In this document: in pieces, positions 871 through 20,244 of the stretch | Numbering within the stretch: position 1 is the stretch's first letter | How the letters are laid out: every line of letters begins with the position of its first letter | DNA from: a virus | IMG/VR virus record: IMGVR_UViG_3300043395_001088 | Location: 1-21,126 of that record | DNA: 21,126 nucleotides | Reading direction: 5' to 3' (one strand) | Position numbers and translations under genes: made by a program | The notes under the pieces: model-generated | The model's database searches: none | Told to the model about the DNA's origin: nothing | Seen by the model: the letters and a program-made list of their open reading frames with translations, nothing else

Positions 871-893
871 CAAAAAGAAGGGGGTTTCCCCCC
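871..893 (-). terminator. Rho-independent terminator-like hairpin between the Ref-like and HiPIP-like genes
   Basis: On the minus strand five or six G are followed by AAA, then five C, then TTCTTTTT. This is a short, very stable GC stem with a U-rich tail, the standard form of an intrinsic terminator. It lies in the only sizeable gap (863-948) of the leftward operon, directly before the GGAG of the next gene. It could end or attenuate transcription of the recombination genes, unless phage antitermination allows read-through. The three-base loop is tight. Confidence 0.6.
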
Positions 894-948: not shown

Positions 949-1221
949 CTATGAATTCTCCCTCATTTCCAAGAGCCTTTCAATTGTTATGTTCAAAGCG
1001 TCAAGTTCATCCATTTTCTTGATTGCCCACATCCTTCGCTGTCCATGAATCCCAAGAGTCGGACTTCTGTGGCAATCTGGACATAACGCCACACAAGTGT
1101 ATTGACTTCCTTGCTTAACATGGTGCGCTTCACTTGGGCCTGGCTCATCACAAACCGAACAAGGTAATTCCTTAACTTGGGCTAGGTGTCTACGCTGTTT
1201 GTTGTTTAGTTTGTTAAACAT
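949..1221 (-). CDS. Ref-like HNH/zinc recombination nuclease
   Basis: This 90-residue protein has a clear His/Cys core: C21-x2-C24, then EAHHVKQGSQ (H33, H34), C43, C47, C50-H51 (LCPDCHR) and GIHGQRRMW (H59). This pattern matches the C-terminal nuclease domain of the Ref (recombination enhancement function) family and the related HNH-like phage proteins. In phage P1, Ref is a RecA-dependent endonuclease that boosts homologous recombination. Here the whole protein is about the size of the catalytic domain. It starts eight bases inside the preceding gene. Its neighbours RusA and NinB support a recombination role. The family call is firm; RecA dependence is inferred. Confidence 0.8.
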   Translation of the reverse strand: MFNKLNNKQRRHLAQVKELPCSVCDEPGPSEAHHVKQGSQYTCVALCPDCHRSPTLGIHGQRRMWAIKKMDELDALNITIERLLEMRENS

Positions 1222-1600
1222 ACAAATCTACCGCCTTCTTCAACATCTCAGGATCAACCTTGCCCCACTCGTCTTGACAAATTTGTAAAGCATTGTCAAT
1301 CGTGATCGCCCACTCTTTTTTCCATTTCCAATCTTTTGAACACTCAACGCAAATGTTAAGTGCGCTTTTGATTTTTCTGAACTCAGGTGAGTCAGTCTTT
1401 CCCATTTCTTCTAAACAGTGAGCAATGATGAAAATCGCCTTGGATGAAGTGAACATCTCTGATTGGCAATTCTCTCCTTCATCTAAGATCAAAAGACTGA
1501 TCCTGTGGTCGGTCATGGCTTCTTTGACTTTTTGTTTAGCAACTGCTCTTGCCACAGGGTTATAAACGACATTCTTTGGAACACGCCTAACGAACTTCAT
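1214..1600 (-). CDS. Hypothetical phage protein
   Basis: No family is recognised. With the start at ATG 1600 (MKFVRRVPKN, GAG a few bases upstream) the product is 128 residues; an in-frame ATG at 1615 would add five. The N-terminus is basic (about residues 1-30). The rest is mixed helical with Cys residues and Trp-rich KDWKWKKEWAI near residue 95, ending KKAVDLYV. It overlaps the NinB gene by 14 bases upstream and the Ref-like gene by eight bases downstream. Its position between two recombination genes suggests a DNA-metabolism or accessory role, but nothing in the sequence shows one. Confidence 0.75.
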   Translation of the reverse strand: MKFVRRVPKNVVYNPVARAVAKQKVKEAMTDHRISLLILDEGENCQSEMFTSSKAIFIIAHCLEEMGKTDSPEFRKIKSALNICVECSKDWKWKKEWAITIDNALQICQDEWGKVDPEMLKKAVDLYV

Positions 1601-2000
1601 CGATCTCGACCCCATTCGATGAACACCAAGCCATCAGCCACTCAGTAAACTCGCTTGCTTCTTCTTTTGTAAAGTTTCGTGTCTGGATGCCCAATTGCAC
1701 GACCCTTTGTCCATCAAGGCTAGGAACGACTTGACCAACCCTTCTATCGGTTTCCGCTGCCCAAGCATCAACAAGAAAGCGTTTCCAACTCTCCGTGTCC
1801 CACTTTGCACCCATGTGCTGTGCCTGTTTAGCAACTTGCCCGATGATTGAATGAAACATTGCGTTCTGGTCAATGCTTCTCTTTTCTTCTTTGATTGACA
1901 GGGTTAACACATGACCACCATTTAGCCTAGCCTTGATTCTTGGCATTAGGCTTGAGATCAACTCATGAGCCTGTTGGTAGTTGTGCAGTTTCCAATCCAT
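1587..2000 (-). CDS. ninB: NinB-type recombination mediator
   Basis: The 137-residue product has the size and signature of the lambda NinB (Orf) family: an N-terminal helix-strand region, then EEKRSIDQNAMFHSII at about 38-53 (family pattern 'k.RS.dQNak.h.ll.diA'), and SWKRFLVDAW at 71-80. In lambda, NinB/Orf binds single-stranded DNA and SSB and substitutes for host RecFOR in recombination. The gene begins where the RusA gene stops (TAATG). Pairing of ninB with rusA (the rap/rusA position) is typical of the lambdoid nin region. This family call is among the most secure in the left operon. Confidence 0.88.
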   Translation of the reverse strand: MDWKLHNYQQAHELISSLMPRIKARLNGGHVLTLSIKEEKRSIDQNAMFHSIIGQVAKQAQHMGAKWDTESWKRFLVDAWAAETDRRVGQVVPSLDGQRVVQLGIQTRNFTKEEASEFTEWLMAWCSSNGVEIDEVR

Positions 2001-2407
2001 TAAGCCTCCTTGATCAAAACATCAATGCCTGGCTTAACATCATACACTTTTGTTAAGTGCAACTCAACGATCTGCGAGTCATCTTTGTAAATCAGTCCGT
2101 TAAAGGCATCTGTAACGGCCTTACAAAGATTGTCTAGGTCTGGCTTCTTTGAAGGCCTCTCAGAACCGCTTAAACAGGCTTCTGTGCGCTTTTTTGAGTA
2201 TGACTGAGGCACACCCACACGGAAATACAAAAATGCCTCTAATGCCGTTTCTAAGGGTTCTTGACTTCCCATCGCTTGCATAGCGTAAACCCTAACTGCT
2301 TCTTCAAAGGTTTTTGTCTTTTTTGGGGTGTAAGTTCCGAATCGGCTCAGTCTTGGTCTGCCCTTTGGGATTGGTGCTATTGGAATGGAGAATTGAATCA
2401 TCATCAT
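2000..2407 (-). CDS. rusA: RusA family Holliday junction resolvase
   Basis: The 135-residue protein begins IQFSIPIAPIPKGRPR after three Met codons, as RusA proteins do ('f.ipG.P.pk.RPR'). It carries the catalytic block KKPDLDNLCKAVTDAFNG at 87-104, followed by YKDDSQIVE at 107-115. D90, D92 and the later D109/D110 are the expected metal-binding acids, and K96 matches the catalytic lysine. The enzyme cuts four-way junctions in recombination or before packaging. It is followed by ninB with a one-base stop/start overlap and preceded by a 55-aa gene whose TGA sits inside its first ATGs. The length is normal for the family. Confidence 0.92.
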   Translation of the reverse strand: MMMIQFSIPIAPIPKGRPRLSRFGTYTPKKTKTFEEAVRVYAMQAMGSQEPLETALEAFLYFRVGVPQSYSKKRTEACLSGSERPSKKPDLDNLCKAVTDAFNGLIYKDDSQIVELHLTKVYDVKPGIDVLIKEA

Positions 2408-2571
2408 GGATGCGCCTTAAACCAACTGATTCGCTTTCCAAAAAAATAAAGATAGAAGCCAAACCTGTCACGCCATTGCACATGAATATTAATTGGAGTT
2501 CCTCCTTCGTTAATTGAAAAACCCCAAAAACGAAAGTATGTAATTCCTGTCATGTGTTTATGTTTGCTCAT
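2404..2571 (-). CDS. Small aromatic-rich hypothetical protein (55 aa)
   Basis: This is a short gene. It starts at ATG 2571 with GGAG eight bases upstream and ends with a TGA inside the ATGATG of rusA. The protein begins MSKHKHMTGITYFRFWGFSI and is rich in Phe, Tyr and Trp, with VQWRDRFGFYLYFFGKR at about 31-47. The alternating aromatic/basic pattern suggests a small beta-sheet fold rather than a membrane helix. It overlaps the preceding gene by 14 bases. No family is recognised. Overlaps at both ends and a good ribosome site support expression. Confidence 0.65.
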   Translation of the reverse strand: MSKHKHMTGITYFRFWGFSINEGGTPINIHVQWRDRFGFYLYFFGKRISWFKAHP

Positions 2572-2785
2572 CTTTAATTCTCCTTAGAAAATCGTCTTTG
2601 AATCCTGTAAACAATCCTGATTGATCAGCGTCCAAGTCTTTGACTGTCCACCAAATCTGCTCTTTCCAGCCTGGGTTCTTCGCTAACCTCAAACAATGCT
2701 GCATCCATCTCTGATAGATCCCCTGTGATCCAGAGTGCTCTGGTGACTGTGAGCATGGAGTGGCATTGTCTTTCTTTGTGTTCAT
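2558..2785 (-). CDS. Hypothetical phage protein, downstream frame of a possible frameshifted gene
   Basis: The C-terminal two thirds (from about RWMQHCLRLAKNPGWKEQIW through DLDADQSGLFTGFKDDFLRR) reads like a conserved small phage protein: Trp-rich, then an 'LD.d.sGL..g..d.l' end. The N-terminus in this frame (Met, Thr/Ser/Cys/Pro-rich) looks unnatural, and ATG 2785 has no clear ribosome site. An overlapping frame (2625-2816) supplies a better N-terminus starting exactly at the previous gene's stop. I suspect the two are one gene separated by a +1 shift near 2715-2725, but list this frame as the more likely C-terminal product. Confidence 0.5.
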   Translation of the reverse strand: MNTKKDNATPCSQSPEHSGSQGIYQRWMQHCLRLAKNPGWKEQIWWTVKDLDADQSGLFTGFKDDFLRRIKDEQT

Positions 2786-2816
2786 CAAGGATTCGGTTTG
2801 CTTGGTTAATGTTCAT
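2625..2816 (-). CDS. Upstream frame of the possible frameshifted gene
   Basis: This frame starts with ATG at 2816, overlapping the TGA of the helicase-loader gene (ATGA), the usual junction in this operon. The first ~35 residues (NINQANRILDEHKERQCHS, then VTRALWITGDLS) look like a normal helical phage protein. Beyond about residue 36 the sequence becomes charged and unlike a folded domain (EEPRLERADLVDSQRLGR), while the overlapping frame becomes protein-like at the same place. It is either a separate 63-aa gene or the true N-terminal half of the gene ending at 2558. I favour the second reading. Confidence 0.45.
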   Translation of the reverse strand: MNINQANRILDEHKERQCHSMLTVTRALWITGDLSEMDAALFEVSEEPRLERADLVDSQRLGR

Positions 2817-3202
2817 TTTTTAAATTTTTCTCTAAGTATTCTTAACGCTGCTAGTCCAGCTTCTCGTTGTCGATCTGCTTCTTCAATTTCAGCCTGCGTC
2901 ATTTGTTTTTCAATCATTTTTACAGGCTTAACAGGAATCTGTGGGCCAGCATTGCAAAGATTCCTAAACTTGATCGCACTTGGGACAAACTCTCCATCTA
3001 GCTTGCTAATCGCATAGTCCATGCTTGGTTTGTATGTTAAGAATCGACCAAGTTGAGTTTTCCACTCTTGTCGAACAAAGTCTGGATCAATGCCATCAAA
3101 GTGACGATTGAAAGGTGCGCCAAAAATAGCCATCATCCGAGCAAAGATGTAATCAAGCCCTTCGTCTGGTTGGCAGAAATCAGCTTCCGAGTAACTTGAC
3201 AT
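2813..3202 (-). CDS. Lambda P-like replicative helicase loader
   Basis: I place the start at ATG 3202 because GGAGGTG lies about seven bases upstream; this gives 129 residues. The segment LDYIFARMMAIFGAPFNRHF at 16-35, followed by DPDFVRQEW and a stretch ending EFVPSAIKFRNLC at 71-83, fits the replication protein P family ('iF..l...yG..F...wgd....k..W...l' and 'P....F..lC'). P loads the host DnaB helicase at the phage origin. The C-terminal 30 residues are a charged coil (QAEIEEADRQREAGL). It follows a DUF1376 protein, the usual pairing with the origin-binding protein upstream. The start overlaps the end of that gene by 23 bases. Confidence 0.7.
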   Translation of the reverse strand: MSSYSEADFCQPDEGLDYIFARMMAIFGAPFNRHFDGIDPDFVRQEWKTQLGRFLTYKPSMDYAISKLDGEFVPSAIKFRNLCNAGPQIPVKPVKMIEKQMTQAEIEEADRQREAGLAALRILREKFKK

Positions 3203-3911
3203 TTGAGCCACCTCCGATAAGTCCACGTGTTAAGCCAGATATTACACGCTGATTCATCTGACCAGTCTGACTTAAGTTCTGTTGTTCAGGCTTGATCCAA
3301 TCTGCTTTAAATCCTCTCCAACCTCTAGCGACACATTCAATCAATGCTTGCTCAAGTGTCCAGTTAAGTTTATCTGCCTCTTTACGAATTTGATTAATAA
3401 CGACTTCCGATATGACCGCCCTAGATTTTTTACGCTGTTCAGTAAACGCTTTCCACACTTCTTCTGATACGCCTTCAGGCGCAACAACGACAGTTGTTCT
3501 TTTATTTGGTTCTTGGTTATTGGTTATTGGTTTATGGTTATTGGTTGCCATTGGGGTAGCATTAGGGGGGCTATTAGCCTCCCCATTGGGGGGGCTATCC
3601 AAACCCTTTGACCACCGAACATTTGCGCCCTTTTTTCCATCTTCTGAGAACTTTCGATACTTGGCAATTTCCTTGTCAGCTCTTGGATGAATATAGCCAT
3701 GCTCGGTGCTTACAAAAAACTCGTCAAGAATTGACAAGACTTCTTGCTCATAATCCCTCATGCCAATCTGACGAGCGATATCTCGTTGCTTGATCGGTAA
3801 TTCATGAAGGTAGTAGTAGTCAAGCAATCGTCTAAACGCCAAGTCCTCAATGAGCGATAGATGATGCGTGTGACTTTTATAGTCACCTATATGAAATTGG
3901 TAAAAGTGCAT
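3180..3911 (-). CDS. DUF1376 (YdaU-type) phage replication initiation protein
   Basis: I choose ATG 3911 (MHFYQFHIGDYKSHTHHLSL, AGGA five bases upstream), giving 243 residues. The N-terminal ~85 residues are a clear DUF1376 domain: 'fhiGdY...T.hLs..E..aYrrLLd.yY....Pi..d...ia.....' with RRLLDYYYLHELPI at about 27-40. A Pro/Asn/Thr-rich linker follows (about 115-150). The C-terminal third has EEVWKAFTEQRKKSRA and EQALIECVARGWRGFKADW, a helical replisome-type module. The protein is the probable origin-binding or initiator factor, acting with the P-like loader that overlaps it downstream. The linker DNA contains runs of TTGGTTATTGG-like repeats (3508-3545), which could be the origin region. Confidence 0.8.
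   Translation of the reverse strand: MHFYQFHIGDYKSHTHHLSLIEDLAFRRLLDYYYLHELPIKQRDIARQIGMRDYEQEVLSILDEFFVSTEHGYIHPRADKEIAKYRKFSEDGKKGANVRWSKGLDSPPNGEANSPPNATPMATNNHKPITNNQEPNKRTTVVVAPEGVSEEVWKAFTEQRKKSRAVISEVVINQIRKEADKLNWTLEQALIECVARGWRGFKADWIKPEQQNLSQTGQMNQRVISGLTRGLIGGGSNVKLLGS
3505..3550. repeat. Short AT-rich direct repeats inside the DUF1376 gene; possible origin iterons
   Basis: On the plus strand the sequence repeats TTGGTTATTGG-like words several times (gttcTTGGTTATTGGTTATTGG..., then ATGGTTATTGG). These encode an Asn/Pro-rich linker (NNHKPITNNQ). In lambda the origin iterons lie inside the O gene, also in its linker-coding part. The position in the middle of the initiator gene therefore makes a replication origin plausible. 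Low-complexity linker coding explains the repeats equally well. Confidence 0.4.
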
Positions 3912-4014
3912 ACTTTTCCTCGCAACCCTCCAGAAGGAAACATGGGCAGGTGGGAGGTTCACTTTTCGGTGCGCTCATGACTTCGCACCTAGCCCTGTTT
4001 CACACAATCTTACA

Positions 4015-4164
4015 TCAAAAACAATTTGTGTTGCAACTTCCACCAAAACAACAGGTCGTGCAAGTCACCATGCGCCCTTGGTAGGTGTAAGTGCTGGTGG
4101 TGCAGTTAGCCCACACGCTTGTTGATACCACGGCAATCAACCAGGCTGCGATTAGTTTTTTCAT
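4015..4164 (-). CDS. Secreted Cys-rich mini-protein (49 aa)
   Basis: The start at 4164 overlaps the stop of the Cro-like gene (ATGA). Residues 1-19 form a textbook signal peptide: MKK, a hydrophobic core LIAAWLIAVVSTSV, and the cleavage pattern VWA-N. The predicted mature part is only about 30 residues with six cysteines: one near its start, then the cluster MVTCTTCCFGGSCNTNCF at the C-terminus. A protein like this should be exported and disulfide-bonded in the periplasm. I recall similar CTTCC...C..CF mini-proteins in phages, with no known function. Its place directly behind an immediate-early regulator suggests early expression. Superinfection exclusion or modulation of host envelope proteins is speculation. 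Confidence 0.72.
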   Translation of the reverse strand: MKKLIAAWLIAVVSTSVWANCTTSTYTYQGRMVTCTTCCFGGSCNTNCF

Positions 4165-4337
4165 TCGGTTTCTCCAGTTTTAACATCTTGGGTCTGTTGC
4201 TCCCTGATTTTTCGCAGTTGTTCAGCCCTGTCCTTAGGCATCTCTTTCCACTGCGTAACAGCAGATCGAGTGACACCTAACAGGCTTGCAAGTTTACTTT
4301 TGTTTCCAGCAAATGCGATTGCTTCCTCTAAAGTCAT
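4161..4337 (-). CDS. P22 Cro-like HTH transcription regulator
   Basis: I start at ATG 4337 (58 aa) with AGGAG six bases upstream; the open frame upstream runs through the promoter and operators. Residues 1-34 read MTLEEAIAFAG, then KSKLASLLGVTRSAVTQW at 13-30, then KEMP: a helix-turn-helix with the 'LA..LGvtr.aVsqW...iP..ra..l' pattern of the P22 Cro/YdaS group. The C-terminus is short and charged. It is the first gene leftward from the divergent control region, so it probably binds the nearby CTTAACA sites and represses one or both early promoters. No CI-type repressor is present in the window. Confidence 0.82.
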   Translation of the reverse strand: MTLEEAIAFAGNKSKLASLLGVTRSAVTQWKEMPKDRAEQLRKIREQQTQDVKTGETE

Positions 4338-4359
4338 GATGACTCCTTTCAGTTTAGCC

Positions 4360-4388
4360 ATCTTAACAGAGTATCTTAACAACAACAA
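4360..4388 (-). promoter_or_regulatory. Leftward early promoter (sigma70-like)
   Basis: On the minus strand a -35 box TTGTTG (4388-4383) is followed by a 17-bp spacer and a -10 box TAAGAT (4365-4360). Transcription would start near 4353, just before the AAAGGAG ribosome site and the ATG at 4337 of the Cro-like gene. Both operator copies at 4362-4368 and 4375-4381 lie in the spacer/-10 region, so a bound regulator would block polymerase. Confidence 0.6.
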
Positions 4389-4403
4389 ATAAGGGTAAGT
4401 CCC

Positions 4404-4433
4404 TAGACAAAGTGTTAAGTAGTTTGTTAAGAT
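4404..4433 (+). promoter_or_regulatory. Rightward early promoter (sigma70-like)
   Basis: On the plus strand TAGACA (4404-4409) matches the -35 consensus in five of six bases. An 18-bp spacer leads to TAAGAT (4428-4433) as -10. It would drive the rightward operon starting at 4479 with a leader of about 39 bases. Its -10 box is identical to the leftward promoter's and overlaps the outer operator, giving a near-symmetrical control region. Confidence 0.6.
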
Positions 4434-4467
4434 GGCGTCAATGTTTAGCAAACGCTGAACAGATCAA

Positions 4468-4483
4468 GGAGTCTTAACATGAA
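4468..4483 (+). promoter_or_regulatory. Ribosome site identical to the one at 4734-4749
   Basis: The 16 bases GGAGTCTTAACATGAA around the start codon of the 4479 gene recur exactly at 4734-4749 around the start of the membrane peptide gene. They combine a strong Shine-Dalgarno site with the CTTAACA motif of the operator array. This is either a duplication of a translation initiation region or a shared regulatory site. Confidence 0.55.
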
Positions 4484-4706
4484 CATCAGATCGCAACTTT
4501 CTAGGAGTGTCCAAATGGACTTCTCAGTTATCCCCTTTGATTTCGCCTCTACCGAGGTTCGCATCCAAGCAAATACCAAGTCTGCCAAAGACTTCTTTGC
4601 TAACAAGTTTGGCATTGGATGCGTCAGCATCAATGTCCCCAAGTCTGTCGCCCAAAACGCTCTCGACAAAATCGAGGCAGAGGGTTTCTCTGTTAACCTT
4701 ATCTAA
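4479..4706 (+). CDS. Hypothetical protein, first gene of rightward operon
   Basis: The 75-residue product starts at ATG 4479 with GGAG eight bases upstream (a second Met is at residue 13). From about residue 14 it reads DFSVIPFDFASTEVRI, then SAKDFFANKFGIGCVSINVP and a C-terminal helix QNALDKIEAEGFSVN. This looks like a compact alpha/beta fold with an N-terminal tail. I recall similar 'f....VRI......FF....G.G...i.vp.s' proteins in phages but no function. It is the first rightward early gene, so it should be made immediately on infection. Its ribosome site contains an operator-like CTTAACA. Confidence 0.75.
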   Translation: MNIRSQLSRSVQMDFSVIPFDFASTEVRIQANTKSAKDFFANKFGIGCVSINVPKSVAQNALDKIEAEGFSVNLI

Positions 4707-4710
4707 ACAT

Positions 4711-4728
4711 AAGCCACTTAGGTGGCTT
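4711..4728 (+). terminator. Terminator/attenuator-like hairpin after first rightward gene
   Basis: AAGCCAC and GTGGCTT form a perfect 7-bp stem with a TTAG loop, five bases after the stop of the first rightward gene. Only a short TTTAA follows, so termination would be weak. It may attenuate the operon or protect the 3' end of the first transcript. Confidence 0.45.
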
Positions 4729-4744
4729 TAACTGGAGTCTTAAC

Positions 4745-4825
4745 ATGAAGCAAGAAATCATTTACGCAGTCATCACCATCGTGACCTTTGCCTATATTGG
4801 CGTTCTTCTGGCATGGAGAGGGTAA
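4745..4825 (+). CDS. Tiny single-span membrane peptide (26 aa)
   Basis: The frame encodes MKQEIIYAVITIVTFAYIGV and then LLAWRG before TAA. It is a single hydrophobic helix of about 20 residues with a charged N-terminus and a WRG end. It has a full GGAG ribosome site, and its stop overlaps the next gene's start (TAATG), which argues for real translation. Peptides of this kind insert in the inner membrane. Its role is unknown; it could modulate a host membrane protein or simply couple translation to the next gene. Confidence 0.6.
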   Translation: MKQEIIYAVITIVTFAYIGVLLAWRG

Positions 4826-5025
4826 TGGACGTAGTAAACCACCCGCCGCACTACACAGATCATCCATCAGGTATTGAGTGCATTCAGATCACTGAACACT
4901 TGAACTTCTGTCTTGGCAATGCTGTTAAGTATATCTGGAGGGCTGATCTGAAAGACGATGCCATTGAAGACCTAAAAAAAGCAGTTTGGTATATCAACCG
5001 AGAAATCGCAAGGAGAACCAAGTGA
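4825..5025 (+). CDS. DUF3310 protein
   Basis: I start at ATG 4825 (66 aa), with GGAG six bases upstream and a one-base overlap with the preceding stop. The protein follows the DUF3310 pattern closely: NHPPHYTDHPSGIECIQI near the N-terminus, then HLNFCLGNAVKYIWRADLKD, then DLKKAVWYINREI. DUF3310 proteins are common in phages, often annotated as SaV-like or nucleotide-kinase-associated, but the biochemical function is not established. The length is typical. The stop overlaps the next start (GTGA). Confidence 0.85.
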   Translation: MDVVNHPPHYTDHPSGIECIQITEHLNFCLGNAVKYIWRADLKDDAIEDLKKAVWYINREIARRTK

Positions 5026-10453: not shown

Positions 10454-10718
10454 TTTCAGGCTCCTTCTTTAATAGGTCTTGCACAACATCCTTGCCCTTA
10501 ATAGCCAACAAGGTTCCTAGACTGCCCAAAATGTATTTGGACATATCCGACAAAAGGTAGAAAAATTGCTTATCTGCTGGTGCAATTCCACCCATAGGCT
10601 GAGGAACAAACACCAAAGAGAACATCGACAACCCAACCATGACCAACACAGTGGCGCAGAAGGTGAAGGCGATCATGAATTTGATCTTTGCCTCAATCGT
10701 TTCGTTGTCCCACTTCAT
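10389..10718 (-). CDS. Two-span membrane protein, holin/antiholin candidate
   Basis: The 109-residue protein has hydrophobic segments at about 14-38 (FMIAFTFCATVLVMVGLSMF) and 53-73 (FYLLSDMSKYILGSLGTLLA), joined by a loop containing PQPMGGIAPADKQ. The C-terminal ~30 residues are polar and low in complexity (PENDPPASPDGSGQQDSGQS). The topology fits a class II holin or an antiholin. The polar tail is encoded by DNA that also encodes the first 22 residues of the neighbouring holin-like protein. Membrane location is firm, holin function is inferred from the lysis context. Confidence 0.65.
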   Translation of the reverse strand: MKWDNETIEAKIKFMIAFTFCATVLVMVGLSMFSLVFVPQPMGGIAPADKQFFYLLSDMSKYILGSLGTLLAIKGKDVVQDLLKKEPENDPPASPDGSGQQDSGQSSSK

Positions 10719-10900
10719 CTCTGTTCACCTTTCAATTCTTCGGGCTTCAACAACTGATCAGGGCACTCTTGGGTGATGGCGCACAGGGGTCGTTTGCAAT
10801 CTTCCATCTCCCAATTCTTGGGGTTCATGCAGGGGTAGCGGTAATACTCTGGCGCATCACAGCCAGCCAGCAGAACGACCAAAATAAGCGCCCTCATCAT
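10715..10900 (-). CDS. Small Cys-rich lipoprotein in the lysis cassette
   Basis: I start at ATG 10900 (MMRALILVVLLAGC), which overlaps the upstream TGA; AAAGGA lies just before it. The frame upstream to 10939 lies in the neighbouring gene. The product is 61 residues with a lipobox LLAG-C14, so the mature protein is lipidated and probably in the outer membrane. It then carries CDAPEYYRYPCMNPKNWEME and three further Cys before a charged end. An outer-membrane spanin (Rz1-like) role fits the position, but it is not Pro-rich. I recall similar 'PeYYrYPC..p.nWe...C' lipoproteins beside phage lysis genes. Confidence 0.68.
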   Translation of the reverse strand: MMRALILVVLLAGCDAPEYYRYPCMNPKNWEMEDCKRPLCAITQECPDQLLKPEELKGEQR

Positions 10901-11388
10901 TTGTCCTTTGCAAACATGATCCCTTGGATCACTAGCCAAATCAAAGGCGGAACCAACAACACAACCAAGCCGACGCCAATTGCAATGTTGACCATCTCAG
11001 CCATCTTCTTGGCCTTCTTGATGGCGGCATCCCTGGCTCTGCGTCTAGCCTCTCGCTCCGCTTCTTCGCCTTCTGCAACACGCTTTTGGATGGCCTCCCA
11101 AACATCAGCACGACCAGTTTGAAAGAAGATCATCTTTAGACCTTCTTCCCACTCACGCTGTTGCATCAACTGGACTTCAATCTGGATCGCTTGAGCCAGT
11201 GAAGAACCGCCTTCTTTCTTTGCTTGCTCTAGGGCATCAGTTGCCTGTTTCTTTGCCCCAAAATATTGCCCCAACATAGGGGCAAGAGATTGCACATCGT
11301 TAACAGTCTTTTGAGCCTGTTTGATGACCTGCACAGTCTTTTGAACGGCTGCAAATGCTGAAAGGGCAAGAGTGATTGGCTCCATCAT
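10897..11388 (-). CDS. Helical protein with C-terminal membrane anchor
   Basis: The 163-residue protein starts with two Met codons (MMEPITLALSAFAAVQKTVQ). Its long central part is helical and charged, with GRADVWEAIQKRVAEGEEAE and then a run of Arg/Lys/Ala (about 108-130). The C-terminus has one membrane span at about 134-157 (NIAIGVGLVVLLVPPLIWLV) followed by MFAKDK. Proteins with this plan, starting 'mdPiT...a....vk.i' and containing 'G..dvwe', occur next to lysis genes in podoviruses. An inner-membrane spanin or lysis accessory is possible. No enzymatic motif is seen. Confidence 0.62.
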   Translation of the reverse strand: MMEPITLALSAFAAVQKTVQVIKQAQKTVNDVQSLAPMLGQYFGAKKQATDALEQAKKEGGSSLAQAIQIEVQLMQQREWEEGLKMIFFQTGRADVWEAIQKRVAEGEEAEREARRRARDAAIKKAKKMAEMVNIAIGVGLVVLLVPPLIWLVIQGIMFAKDK

Positions 11389-11597
11389 CCACCTTTAAAG
11401 TGAGAGGCGATCCAAGTAAACACACCGCCAACCATTGAGGCGATGGTCATACCCATCCAGAAACCACCTTTGCCCTTGTTTGCCAGTGCTAGAAGTTCCT
11501 CCAGTTGGCGTTCCATCTTGTCGACCTTCTTGTCCATTTCTTGGACTTTTTGCCAGAGGACACCATATTTGACAAGATCAATTTCGTTCGACTCCAT
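11385..11597 (-). CDS. Coiled-coil plus single-span membrane protein (holin/XhlA-like)
   Basis: The start is ATG 11597 (GAGG six bases upstream; the frame to 11609 begins with TTG), giving 70 residues. MESNEIDLVKYGVLWQKVQE leads into a coiled coil KKVDKMERQLEELLALANKG, then one membrane helix (about 50-65, FWMGMTIASMVGGVFTWIA) and SHFKGG. This coil-plus-anchor layout resembles XhlA or small phage holins. It overlaps the next upstream gene by 20 bases. Its location in the lysis block supports a membrane-disruption or spanin-like role, which is inferred. Confidence 0.65.
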   Translation of the reverse strand: MESNEIDLVKYGVLWQKVQEMDKKVDKMERQLEELLALANKGKGGFWMGMTIASMVGGVFTWIASHFKGG

Positions 11598-11799
11598 CTT
11601 CACCCTCAAGAGATTTCTTGAGCATACTCATGAAGGCATCACGACCAACGCTTAGTTGTTGACGCTGAAAATCAACGCTTGCAATCTTTCGATCAAGGTC
11701 AATCAAGTGATCTAGCATCAACTTCTGCTCTTGGGTCATGCTCTCAATGTCATGCTCTACGCCATCAATATTCACGATTTGGGGCTGTTTGTTTGCCAT
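11578..11799 (-). CDS. Small DUF6447-like protein
   Basis: ATG 11799 (MANKQPQIVNIDGVEHDIES) gives 73 residues; the longer frame adds an unlikely N-terminus. The protein has a short beta start (QIVNIDGVEHDIESMTQEQK) and then a helix LDHLIDLDRKIASVDFQRQQ followed by LSVGRDAFMSMLKKSLEG. This 'v.idGke..l..ls...k.....i...d.ki......l.v...ar..y...L' plan resembles the DUF6447 family of small phage proteins found between tail fibre and lysis genes. No function is known. Confidence 0.65.
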   Translation of the reverse strand: MANKQPQIVNIDGVEHDIESMTQEQKLMLDHLIDLDRKIASVDFQRQQLSVGRDAFMSMLKKSLEGEDGVERN

Positions 11800-11844
11800 C
11801 TCGTTCTCTCTGTGAGCCACCATCAAAGGCTGGTGGATTGCCTG

Positions 11845-12075
11845 TTAAACAGATGCTTGGCGCAAAGGCTCAAGATTCTCATTCGTCCAGAAGGTCTTGG
11901 CAAGTATAATCTTCAGGTGCTCTTTGTTACGAGCAACAGTATCAGCCCACTCAGCATCGTCCATTTGCTCAGGTTTGCCAGCGTTTAAGAGGTTGACGCT
12001 GTCCATAGCCGCCGAGTAATGGCGAGCCACTTCTTCAGCGGACGGGGTTTCCACAGGGGTTGCGACTTCAGTCAT
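11845..12075 (-). CDS. Small acidic protein downstream of the tail fibre gene
   Basis: ATG 12075 with AAGGAG about eight bases upstream gives 76 residues (MTEVATPVETPSAEEVARHY). It is helical and acidic, with DDAEWADTVARNKEHLKIIL at about 40-59, and ends AKTFWTNENLEPLRQASV. Proteins of the pattern 'w...v.rNv.HLei...kdfWt.edl.pl..a' commonly follow tail fibre genes in phages, and may act in fibre assembly. That role is not shown here. It begins two bases after the fibre gene's stop. Confidence 0.68.
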   Translation of the reverse strand: MTEVATPVETPSAEEVARHYSAAMDSVNLLNAGKPEQMDDAEWADTVARNKEHLKIILAKTFWTNENLEPLRQASV

Positions 12076-12077
12076 TT

Positions 12078-13946
12078 TCAGGCTCCTTTGAGTTGAGATT
12101 TGAGGCTGTCCACCTCGGCAGATAGTTGTTTGACAGCGTTGACCAGATACCAAGTCAAGTTGTCAGGGTCAACTGACAAAACGCCAGTCGATTCTTGCTT
12201 CACGCAGTCAGGCAAGACCTGTTGCAGTTCTTGAGCAATCACGCCCAGTTGAACACCTGATTTTTTGACGGCATCAATAGGCTTGAGTTCTGCATCTACT
12301 TCCTCGGGCAAACGATACTCAAAGTTTCGCACCCGAATGGCGTTGATTTTCACAAGACCATCATTGTTGTCAACGATGTTTTTCTTCAGGCGTTGGTCAG
12401 ATGTGGTAGACCAAGAGGCTGAGTTGTTGCCTTGGTAAATACCGCCATAAGTAGAGCCGTTGTACGCAACGATAAATCCAGTATTAGAGCCTTTACCTGT
12501 GGTGTTTGGCGTTCCAATTACCAGTTCATTTGTATCTGTTGCCGCATTGGGCTGTGCGTTTGAGCCAATAAATACACCATTAGTGCCACTTGTAAGGTTA
12601 CTTCCAGCGGTATAACCTAAAGCGGTACTCCCTTGTGCGCCGCCTGTATTGTTATAAAGAGCCTGATAACCAACTGCTGTGTGGTTTGAGCCGGTGGTGT
12701 TGGAGGTCAAGGCTTGCATACCAACTGCGGTGTTGCCATTGGCGGTGGTGTTGGCTTCAAGTGCTGACCGACCAACTGCCACATTGTTAGAACCAGTAGT
12801 ATTTGCGTATAAAGCATATAAACCAAGAGCAGAGTTAGCATTACCAGTCGTGTTAAATCTTAAGGATGTATTACCAATCGCAGTATTTTCTACGCCTGTG
12901 GTGTTTGCATAACCAGCCAAAGAACCAAATGCAGTAATTGTTCCAGTCGTGTTGCTATATCCAGCCTGATAACCCACTGCTGTGTTGGTGGAGCCAGTGG
13001 TGTTTGAATAAAGCGCAGTTCTTCCTACAGCGGTGTTTTGATTTCCAGTTGTTGTGGCTTGCAATACTCTATTGCCAATAGCCGTATTGCTGTCACCTGT
13101 TGCAACATTTAGAGCGAGATAACCAACAGCGGTGTTTACATTACCGACAGAGTTTGTATAAAGCGCGCCGCCTCCAACGGCCACATTTTCTGCGCCTGTT
13201 GTTCCGCTGTAAGAAGCCTGATAACCAACAGCCGTGTTGTTAGAGGCGGTGGTGTTAGAGGCAAGGGCTTGGCGACCAATTGCTATGTTTTTTGTTCCAG
13301 TAGTATTTGACGCTAAAGGAGCATAACTTCCGATTGCCGTGTTGTCATCGCCCGTTGTATTTGCTACAAGTGCATTTGAGCCAACGGCTAAATTTGACCC
13401 TGCCGTTGCTACAAGCAATGCGTTATAACCAATTGCAGTTGTGTTGTTATTTGAAGCAGTACCAGCCGCCAACGCACTCGCACCCACCGCAGTGTTGGTG
13501 GACACAGCACCTGCGCCACGCCCCACAGTGATGCCATTAACACCCAACTGTGCGCCATCAAAGGTAAGCACAGAGCCACTTGTAGCCACCTTAGAGCCGT
13601 TGAGATACAGAACCCCGTTGGCAGTGCCAGCAGACAGAGTAGGGTTCACATTCGCAAAGGTAGCCGTTCCGTTGATCGTGACAGTATCACCAGAAGCATC
13701 ACCCAAAGTTGTGTTACCAGTAGACGATAGAGTTGTGAAAGCACCAGCCGCAGCCGTGGTCGTTCCAACAGGGCCATTGAAGGAGTCACCCTTAGTCCCC
13801 GCTTGGAAGTCCTTGAGTTCTGCCATCAACTCACGAATGGCATCGTTGATATTGCTAGGAGCGCATCCTTCAGCAATGTTGATGCTGTTAATGTCCGTGT
13901 TGCTGTTAGCGGTTGCGCTAAATTCGCTGATCTTTGTTTTTGCCAT
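12078..13946 (-). CDS. Tail fibre with YadA-like repeats and S74 intramolecular chaperone
   Basis: The 622-residue protein starts MAKTKISEFSATANSNTDIN; residues 1-50 (with AIRELMAELKDFQ) form a virion-attachment domain common to phage fibres. About 147-462 is a run of some 14 imperfect ~22-residue repeats of the NTAVGYQAL...NTTG type, the left-handed beta-roll of YadA head domains, so the fibre is probably a trimer. The C-terminus is a Peptidase_S74 chaperone starting at SDQRLKKNI; S516 is the expected self-cleavage serine, with GVIAQELQQVLPD downstream. The chaperone cuts itself off after trimer folding. This is the likely host-receptor binding protein. Confidence 0.92.
   Translation of the reverse strand: MAKTKISEFSATANSNTDINSINIAEGCAPSNINDAIRELMAELKDFQAGTKGDSFNGPVGTTTAAAGAFTTLSSTGNTTLGDASGDTVTINGTATFANVNPTLSAGTANGVLYLNGSKVATSGSVLTFDGAQLGVNGITVGRGAGAVSTNTAVGASALAAGTASNNNTTAIGYNALLVATAGSNLAVGSNALVANTTGDDNTAIGSYAPLASNTTGTKNIAIGRQALASNTTASNNTAVGYQASYSGTTGAENVAVGGGALYTNSVGNVNTAVGYLALNVATGDSNTAIGNRVLQATTTGNQNTAVGRTALYSNTTGSTNTAVGYQAGYSNTTGTITAFGSLAGYANTTGVENTAIGNTSLRFNTTGNANSALGLYALYANTTGSNNVAVGRSALEANTTANGNTAVGMQALTSNTTGSNHTAVGYQALYNNTGGAQGSTALGYTAGSNLTSGTNGVFIGSNAQPNAATDTNELVIGTPNTTGKGSNTGFIVAYNGSTYGGIYQGNNSASWSTTSDQRLKKNIVDNNDGLVKINAIRVRNFEYRLPEEVDAELKPIDAVKKSGVQLGVIAQELQQVLPDCVKQESTGVLSVDPDNLTWYLVNAVKQLSAEVDSLKSQLKGA
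12561..13508 (-). repeat. Degenerate 66-base coding repeats in the tail fibre
   Basis: About 14 consecutive units, most near 22 codons, encode NTAVG/NTAIG...ALxxNTTG repeats (residues 147-462). The DNA copies share words such as GCGGTGTT and CCAGTxGTGTT, but each is diverged. The repeat length can change by recombination, which would alter fibre length. Confidence 0.85.
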
Positions 13947-18592: not shown

Positions 18593-20244
18593 TAGCGCAC
18601 TCCCTGACCAACAACCTCAACATCCACCGCAACAGCGTTCTTCCAATTGTTCCCAGTTGGGGTGATCTGAATCCGATGGTAATTGCCACCAGACCTTAAC
18701 GAAACCCTGTTTTCTTGGGATGCCTGAACCGCAGTTCCATAAACAATATCGTCATCCAACTGTTGTCTTGACGCAACAGCGATGCTTGCCGAGCCGTTAT
18801 CAATCTGCGGTCTGACTAGGGTAATCACCGATCTTTGGCTTCCAATGTCGCCAGTTTGGATGTTTCCAGTCAGGTAAGACCCTGTATAGGTGATCACTCT
18901 AGTCCCAAGCGTTCCACCCAAGAAATACTTGCCACCGAGGAACAAAGGAGAGTCCAAGGATTGATCAAGTGCATCAATGGATGCGCTGATTGAGTCGATC
19001 TGATCCAATGTCAAAGCCGCCGTTGTTGCTTCAGAGATGTAACTAGACCCTGCAATGGCGTATGTCCACTTCTTTGTTGCAAAGTTGTAGATCACCAGTT
19101 TACGAGTGCCATCAATCGCTAGGAAGTTCCACAGAACCAACTTCCGCAAAGGATCAACAGCAGCAGACATATTCGGAAAGTCTGAAGCGGCAGCGTTGGC
19201 AAAGAACCAACGATCAACCTTTTCAGACCCGATTGGAATCACTTGCTGACCATCGCACATATAGAAGCCATCGTCAGACAAGTAGAAGGTAATCCCTGCA
19301 TATTGAGCAATAGAGCCAGCAACAGAACAGCCCTTGTTGCGAGAGATGTTGTCAAATTGGAACACGAACGGAGTCCCAATGTAGGACATACGATAGATGG
19401 CTCGTTCCAAGAAGATCACCCCGAATTCACCACCTCGGATGCCAACGATCTGACCCCCATCAGGAAGGTCTTGATAGTCGGACTGAGTGACTTGCGAACT
19501 CGTCCATGTGGTTTCGTCATTCAGACCAGACCATTGCACTCGATACTGTTGCTGGACACCAGATTCTTTGATGTTGGCACACACAACAAAATCACGCACG
19601 ACTGTAATGAATTTAGCAATCGGCGCATCGTCAGAAAGATTACGGAAAGAAGTAGATGTTCCAAGAGTCCAACTTTGCAAGCGTTGAGAGTTATTCGTGG
19701 CAATGACCACATCACCAAACTGAGTGAACCTGAATCGTTCGTTACTTGCAGTGGTGTATCCAGATGCACTGGGCTTGATCGTCACATTACCCGATGTGGT
19801 CGCAGAAGTGGTCGTGACAGTGAAGGTGTTTGCATCGGTTACAGTCACCGAGAAAGTGCCATCCGTTGCCGATCCAGAGGTGAAATCCAGATAAACCGAA
19901 TCACCAGTTTTCAGTTTGTGTCCATTACTGGTCACTGTCAGAGTGGTCGTGCCAACCTGAGAATAAGTCCCTGTAAACTTAGAAACATCTGTCAAAGCAC
20001 CCACACCAGACACAGAGTAAATCGTGCTTAAACCTGCCGTAAACACTTGCGTGTCCCCATCAGGCTCTCTTGCACCATAAAGAGAAATCAAGTTCTCAGC
20101 AGCAGCCTCGGAGAAGTTCACAGCAGATGGAAAAGGGCCATACCCGACAGCCTGAGAAACCACATTCTTGGCATCAGTCAATGCACCTGTCAGACCAGGT
20201 TGGTCAGGCAACCATTCCGTAAGTTCTATGCGTTGAATAGCCAT
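18592..20244 (-). CDS. Tail/head-completion stabilisation protein (beta-propeller-like)
   Basis: The 550-residue protein begins MAIQRIELTEWLPDQPGLTG, with VGYGPFPSAVNFSEAAAENL at about 33-52, an N-terminus widespread in podovirus proteins annotated as phage stabilisation or tail nozzle proteins. Repeated blocks such as RFRFTQFGDVVIATN, DFVVCANIKESGV, GITFYLSDDGFYMCDG and RKLVIYNFATKKWTYAI read as blades of a beta-propeller. Residues about 95-155 look like an inserted Ig-like module (TLTVTSNGHKLKTGDSVYLD, TFSVTVTDANTFTVTTTSA). It probably closes the portal and connects head and tail. It overlaps the upstream gene by 19 bases. Confidence 0.75.
   Translation of the reverse strand: MAIQRIELTEWLPDQPGLTGALTDAKNVVSQAVGYGPFPSAVNFSEAAAENLISLYGAREPDGDTQVFTAGLSTIYSVSGVGALTDVSKFTGTYSQVGTTTLTVTSNGHKLKTGDSVYLDFTSGSATDGTFSVTVTDANTFTVTTTSATTSGNVTIKPSASGYTTASNERFRFTQFGDVVIATNNSQRLQSWTLGTSTSFRNLSDDAPIAKFITVVRDFVVCANIKESGVQQQYRVQWSGLNDETTWTSSQVTQSDYQDLPDGGQIVGIRGGEFGVIFLERAIYRMSYIGTPFVFQFDNISRNKGCSVAGSIAQYAGITFYLSDDGFYMCDGQQVIPIGSEKVDRWFFANAAASDFPNMSAAVDPLRKLVLWNFLAIDGTRKLVIYNFATKKWTYAIAGSSYISEATTAALTLDQIDSISASIDALDQSLDSPLFLGGKYFLGGTLGTRVITYTGSYLTGNIQTGDIGSQRSVITLVRPQIDNGSASIAVASRQQLDDDIVYGTAVQASQENRVSLRSGGNYHRIQITPTGNNWKNAVAVDVEVVGQGVR

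Follow-up and report, generated by a model that had tools for sequence, protein, structure and literature searches.

Dispersed CTTAACA sites in the operon of a minimal Cro-type phage protein: a candidate stoperator-like system

The DNA analyzed here is a 21,126-nt stretch of a virus (positions 1 to 21,126 of the IMG/VR record IMGVR_UViG_3300043395_001088), hereafter referred to as the window. Its first 5 kb carry the asymmetric 7-mer CTTAACA, or its complement TGTTAAG, in strong excess, both at the operator of a gene encoding a 58-aa Cro-type protein and inside the genes of the operon headed by that gene. These sites are very probably under selection, and the Cro protein is likely to be their reader. 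Whether bound Cro also affects transcription elongation is a proposal that we hold with even confidence. What computation shows directly is that the 7-mer is enriched, that neither protein sequence nor codon use accounts for the excess, that the excess recurs in other phages, where in the genome it lies and that it follows the type of Cro protein.

The window contains 16 copies of the 7-mer, 14 of them at positions below 5000, and every position listed in a preliminary description of this DNA was exact on recounting. Dinucleotide-preserving shuffles of the whole window yielded a mean of 2.6 and a maximum of 7 copies. Within the first 5 kb, CTTAACA is the top-ranking 7-mer, an order-2 Markov model predicting 1.27 copies where 14 are present (p ~1e-10), so that the local enrichment noticed earlier by eye holds against a Markov background; past 5 kb, its frequency under the same model is unremarkable. 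Four of the 14 copies are situated in the divergent intergenic region, two on start codons, seven in leftward genes and one in a rightward gene (4923), which agrees with the previously described four-copy divergent operator and seven copies in leftward genes.

The in-gene copies were further evaluated with codon shuffles, in which synonymous codons were permuted per gene or per region while proteins and codon use were kept. Before 5 kb there are 8 in-gene copies against 1.0-1.4 expected, and none of 1000 shuffles reached 8; after 5 kb there are 2 against 2.1-2.6 expected. The preliminary description had named a codon-preserving background among the comparisons that could refute the enrichment, and the excess withstands it. 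Its concern that coding composition might favor TTAA is excluded by the same shuffles. The eight in-gene copies are the following.

1114-1120, plus strand: copy in the HNH-like gene 949-1221
1354-1360, minus strand: copy in gene 1214-1615
2033-2039, plus strand: copy in the RusA gene
2051-2057, minus strand: copy in the RusA gene
2927-2933, plus strand: copy in gene 2813-3226 (Pro-Val-Lys)
3035-3041, minus strand: copy in gene 2813-3226 (Phe-Leu-Thr), for which the evidence is stronger than for any other individual in-gene site
3228-3234, minus strand: copy in the DUF1376 replication protein gene (Gly-Leu-Thr)
4923-4929, minus strand: copy in the DUF3310 gene of the rightward operon

Where the amino acids at an in-gene site are identical, relatives with other regulators retain CTTAACA in 2 of 29 comparisons; for GC-matched 7-mers of those genes, the retained share is 28-34%. 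The synonymous-site comparison proposed in the preliminary description thus reveals that phages with other regulators use other codons. Among homologues that keep Phe-Leu-Thr at site 3035, CTTAACA is present in 4/4 with an AVTQ recognition helix, as in the window (TRSAVTQW), and in 1/61 of the others. The four AVTQ homologues, whose proteins are 64-65% identical, come from a single phage (L287, L305 and L306) and from L308, and represent two independent cases; the lone non-AVTQ homologue with this spelling, L264, is of the AVC type, a group with partial enrichment. In a separate comparison of the phages with the nearest relatives of gene 2813-3226, CTTAACA is found at this site in 0/47, and the window's 2813-3226 protein is nearer in sequence to phages without the site than to the L306 group. 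Likewise, site 3228 has another spelling in 5/5 amino-acid-identical relatives without the motif. At site 2927, 7/24 homologues with the same Pro-Val-Lys but no enrichment also read TGTTAAG, and this copy, weak evidence when taken alone, may be background.

The Cro gene and its divergent promoters are organized as follows.

4161-4337, minus strand: 58-aa helix-turn-helix protein of the P22_Cro family (PF14549), recognition helix TRSAVTQW, the proposed reader of CTTAACA
4360-4381, minus strand: operator of the leftward promoter, two tandem TGTTAAG (4362 and 4375, 13 bp apart) spanning the spacer and the -10
4365-4360 (-10, TAAGAT) and 4388-4383 (-35, TTGTTG), minus strand: putative leftward promoter, recognized by eye and not listed by the pattern scan
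4404-4433, plus strand: putative rightward promoter, TAGACA-N18-TAAGAT, its -10 preceded by TG, from the pattern scan
4413 and 4425: operator of the rightward promoter, tandem TGTTAAG 12 bp apart, overlapping the spacer and the -10
4473-4479, plus strand: CTTAACA over the start codon at 4479 (GGAGTCTTAACATG)
4739-4745, plus strand: CTTAACA over the start codon of a small open reading frame at 4745 (GGAGTCTTAACATG)

Tandem sites 12-14 bp apart recur in the operators of relatives. The operator copies are mostly tandem and do not form the inverted repeats that are read by a dimer. In L308 and L309, the Cro gene's own ATG directly follows CTTAAC, an arrangement resembling the start-codon copies at 4473 and 4739 in the window.

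The 58-aa protein matches PF14549 with an E-value of 3.4e-11 (43.2 bits, against a curated Pfam cut-off of 30.2). Its AlphaFold2 model (predicted local distance difference test score, pLDDT, 82.6) displays the all-helical Cro fold, and its top Foldseek matches are N15 Cro (6on0/2hin), P22 Cro (1rzs) and Xfaso1 Cro (3bd1), all with probability 1.00 and a root-mean-square deviation of 1.2-1.4; the nearest structure, 6on0, is N15 Cro bound to operator DNA. Exactly one PF14549 match per genome was found in 10/10 records, six of them above the cut-off. No S24-type repressor (PF00717, CI-type) was found in these 10 records, the window included, and no tyrosine integrase (PF00589) in the nine related records, the window, a fragment, not having been searched for the latter; the records searched for both families include four of ~35 kb. 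A search of bacterial genomes returned no close relative of this Cro protein, so nothing points to a prophage form.

A scan of IMG/VR for paired CTTAACA returned at least 120 stretches, most of them unrelated, and protein-anchored searches were therefore used instead. With the proteins of the window and of its relatives as queries, several hundred loci were gathered. A second lineage (L287/L305/L306, L307, L308, L309 and L310/L311), whose Cro proteins are 42-47% identical to that of the window over aligned columns, carries 10-30 copies of CTTAACA per contig. According to the codon shuffles, in-gene copies are in excess in L306 (24 against 2.4 expected), L308 (19 against 3.0), L311 (12 against 2.5) and L309 (9 against 1.5), as well as in L130 (6 against 1.1). 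Control loci with other regulators are nearly all at, below or slightly above expectation, the clear exceptions being L325 and L330, both of the AVTH type. Moreover, a motif-blind search of the regulator's surroundings ranked CTTAACA first among 7-mers in the window, L287, L308, L309, L307 and L130, each of which has a CTTAACA cluster upstream of the Cro gene. In L325 and L330 (helix SRAAVTHW), the in-gene enrichment is moderate (6 against 1.5 and 8 against 2.5) and no CTTAACA cluster lies upstream of the helix-turn-helix gene.

Grouped by recognition helix, phages of the AVTQ type hold 70 copies against 15 expected, those of the AVTH type 17 against 4.5 and those of the AVC type 50 against 17. 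The A.SQ type is close to expectation (26 against 23), and the bulky helix types fall below it (8 against 13.6). Such covariation of motif and helix would provide a simple, sequence-only route to predicting a reader together with its site. De novo searches for a dispersed motif belonging to the other helix types yielded candidates, none of them convincing. Near-variants of the 7-mer are in excess in L257 (CGTTAAG, 9 against 1.1), L275 (CCTTAAC and AGTTAAG) and L283 (AGTTAAC, 9 against 0.8), which have other helices and possibly harbor the same kind of system with shifted specificity.

The copies are unevenly distributed over the genomes. In the window and the L306 group, the operon running in the Cro direction contains 59 copies within 10 kb of the Cro gene, 11.8 being expected, and in the L130/L131/L360 group 18 against ~5.4; copies extend for at least 10 kb, into the terminase gene. 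In the divergent operon, there are 12 copies against 1.8 expected within the first 2 kb and 7 against 5.8 beyond. The complete circular relative MW202544 (L360; 34.7 kb) has its Cro-side operon leading through replication genes and terminase to the structural genes, with recombination genes transcribed in the opposite direction. MW202544 has four operator sites and, in the 8 kb that follow, nine further copies extending through the terminase gene; beyond it, copies are sparse. Its Cro gene (19307-19456) is unannotated, a hypothetical gene being drawn on the opposite strand.

The site itself consists of an asymmetric core of 7 bp, before which C is weakly disfavored. As single-mismatch variants are enriched at most ~2-fold (CTTAACG 2.1, ATTAACA 1.9), no wider consensus is claimed. 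A dyad partner of the 7-mer was sought and not found; in-gene copies are solitary and show no regular spacing. In L306, five TGTTAAG fall within 226 bp (11965-12196) at the 3' end of what is presumed to be the terminase large subunit gene (open frame 10655-12316), in several cases as Val-Lys codons.

In the mechanism that we propose, the asymmetric CTTAACA would be recognized by the 58-aa P22_Cro-type protein. Each of the divergent promoters has tandem sites across its spacer and -10, through which the protein would repress both the operon that it heads and the divergent one. Synonymous codon choice would place solitary copies in the genes of the Cro-headed operon and up to about 2 kb into the divergent operon. 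Once Cro accumulates, bound molecules would slow or stop RNA polymerase that has already passed the promoter, and early transcription would be shut down along the whole unit, beyond its start alone. The Cro protein is the likely reader because such a pattern implies a protein that binds DNA, Cro type is the correlate of the excess and the densest cluster is located at the Cro promoter. For the chain as a whole, in which Cro reads CTTAACA and the selected in-gene copies probably slow elongation, we consider the arguments on either side to be of about equal weight. With less assurance, we suggest that in these freshwater phages, in which lysogeny genes were not detected, a minimal Cro could act as a genome-embedded elongation brake, ~15-30 solitary 7-bp sites in either orientation dimming the operon into the terminase gene, and that this arrangement could have evolved apart from the stoperators of actinobacteriophages. 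If true, dispersed repressor sites would be a general means of controlling long phage operons, coding sequence would be bent at synonymous positions to carry them, and a stoperator system would have arisen convergently from a single Cro domain in another kind of phage, one without lysogeny genes found.

Several observations weigh against this proposal. The mixed orientation remarked upon in the preliminary description is borne out: relative to the gene, 47 copies are on the coding strand and 39 on the template strand (seven genomes). L5 sites do not halt elongation when reversed (PMC9283540). Mixed orientation hence argues against an orientation-specific mechanism of the L5 kind and would fit a plain roadblock, a sink or a silencing array. 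Binding to a site of 7 bp by one 58-aa domain may be weak. Additionally, conservation of position in the L306 group is modestly above background (8/8 against 0.61, 5/5 against 0.53 and 4/7 against 0.47), indicating that copies turn over in position. The L130/L131/L360 group combines a clear operator with weaker dispersal, and in L131 alone the enrichment under codon shuffles is not significant. Finally, the link between helix and motif is not all-or-none, and the A.SQ and AVC groups hold single partly enriched loci (L188, L275, L171 and L190).

Some of these observations are what would be expected if the dispersed copies were a sink that dilutes Cro, so that promoter repression is delayed or shifts with genome replication, and elongation is not affected: copies are solitary, occur in both orientations and turn over, their number being kept rather than their places. 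We nevertheless regard a sink as unlikely. It would work anywhere in the genome, whereas the copies concentrate in the Cro-headed operon, and most of the divergent and structural regions have none; for this reason, an effect on transcription of the operon is favored over a simple sink. Bound Cro might also form a silencing or DNA-organizing array that, by bridging, looping or spreading, strengthens promoter repression or shapes how the region is replicated and packaged. The density of copies, which peaks around and to one side of the operator, and the crowding at the presumed terminase 3' end of L306 would suit such an array, but the protein has no oligomerization domain beyond the Cro fold and the in-gene spacing is irregular, making this quite unlikely.

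Replication and recombination genes contain copies or have them nearby, and another protein, such as the DUF1376 primosomal replication protein or a recombination protein of the Cro-headed operon, could in principle read these copies in the manner of iterons or recombination hot spots. This is very unlikely, given that phages with DUF1376 proteins 68-86% identical to that of the window are mostly without enrichment, as is L225, the phage with the nearest Erf, while the 47 phages with the nearest 2813-3226 relatives hold 49 copies against ~67 expected (summed over phages). It is the type of Cro protein that correlates with the excess, and the densest cluster is at Cro's own promoter. That coding composition, host codon-pair habits or chance produced the excess deserves hardly any credence: TTA, ACA, GTT and AAG are ordinary codons here and copy 2927 looks like background, but the codon shuffles, the recurrence in a second lineage and the different spelling in relatives without the operator all speak against it.

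Two further elements accompany the Cro-headed operon.

4392-4404, no strand assigned: palindrome AGGGTAAGTCCCT, another conserved control element, flanked by the two operator arms
877-893, minus strand: terminator-like hairpin (GGGGGGAAACCCCC, then a T-rich tail) in the leftward operon, recognized by pattern only

The palindrome, of the form AGGGN5CCCT, occurs at most 350 bp upstream of the helix-turn-helix gene in 32 of 154 loci, against 0.008 expected per locus. It is found upstream of the Cro gene irrespective of Cro type (e.g. L130, L164, L170 and L148), and lies ~41 bp ahead of a -10 (TACAAT/TAAGAT), spaced as a class II activator site would be. Beyond the hairpin, the leftward operon holds no CTTAACA copy in the window. 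Elsewhere, 12078-13946 encodes a large protein whose translation reads as many NTAVG-like repeat units followed by a C-terminal region resembling an intramolecular chaperone. No relatives were found for the protein encoded at 4479-4706, megablast of the whole window against named phages gave no match, and Rfam and tRNA searches found none.

With respect to known systems, the 58-aa protein shares with P22 Cro and N15 Cro (PF14549) its family, its fold, the position of its gene beside divergent promoters and operators that overlap the -10. Known Cro proteins, however, use few operators in the switch region, in contrast to the dozens of solitary in-gene sites described here, and no CI-type partner was found. 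PY54 Cro is reported to bind a single site (PMC4488713, PMC4997575). No report of in-gene Cro sites was found in the literature searched, which is not proof of absence, and a literal search of the literature for CTTAACA produced unrelated matches only. The temperate lambdoid switch (cI/cro) differs in its CI-type repressor and integrase, which were not found in the records searched.

To our knowledge, stoperators are well established only in temperate phages of actinobacteria that have a two-domain repressor. T1-like phages (T1, Stevie and TLS) contain 22-bp repeats, mainly intergenic and in one direction, for which no reader has been proposed (PMC4319613, PMC11447400); like the sites described here, these repeats are dispersed and asymmetric and belong to phages with a lytic life style, and the authors of the T1-like studies themselves drew the comparison with stoperators. 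The Nostoc cyanophages A-1 and N-1 also have asymmetric repeats, not consistently in gene direction and suggested to be stoperators, with a longer motif, a location typically between open reading frames and no identified reader (PMC4916379).

In L5 and other Cluster A phages, the stoperators bound by gp71 are 13 bp long and number more than 20 per genome; most occupy short intergenic spaces, they share one orientation, and the L5 repressor is a monomeric, two-domain protein of a temperate phage (PMC9283540, PMC6550527). As in L5, many copies of one asymmetric site are present here at promoters and along the transcribed units, and sites covary with repressor type. On the other hand, the present system has a 7-bp core instead of a 13-bp intergenic site, copies that are mostly within genes and in both orientations, a single 58-aa domain instead of a two-domain Cluster A immunity repressor, and no integrase found. 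The stoperator-like system run by a Cro-like protein that was put forward in the preliminary description hence stands as regards an operator of such a protein, in-gene dispersal, replication in a second lineage and the link to Cro type, while its likeness to L5 is functional only. The CTTAACA system is outside the L5 stoperator family, and L5 is its nearest functional analogue.

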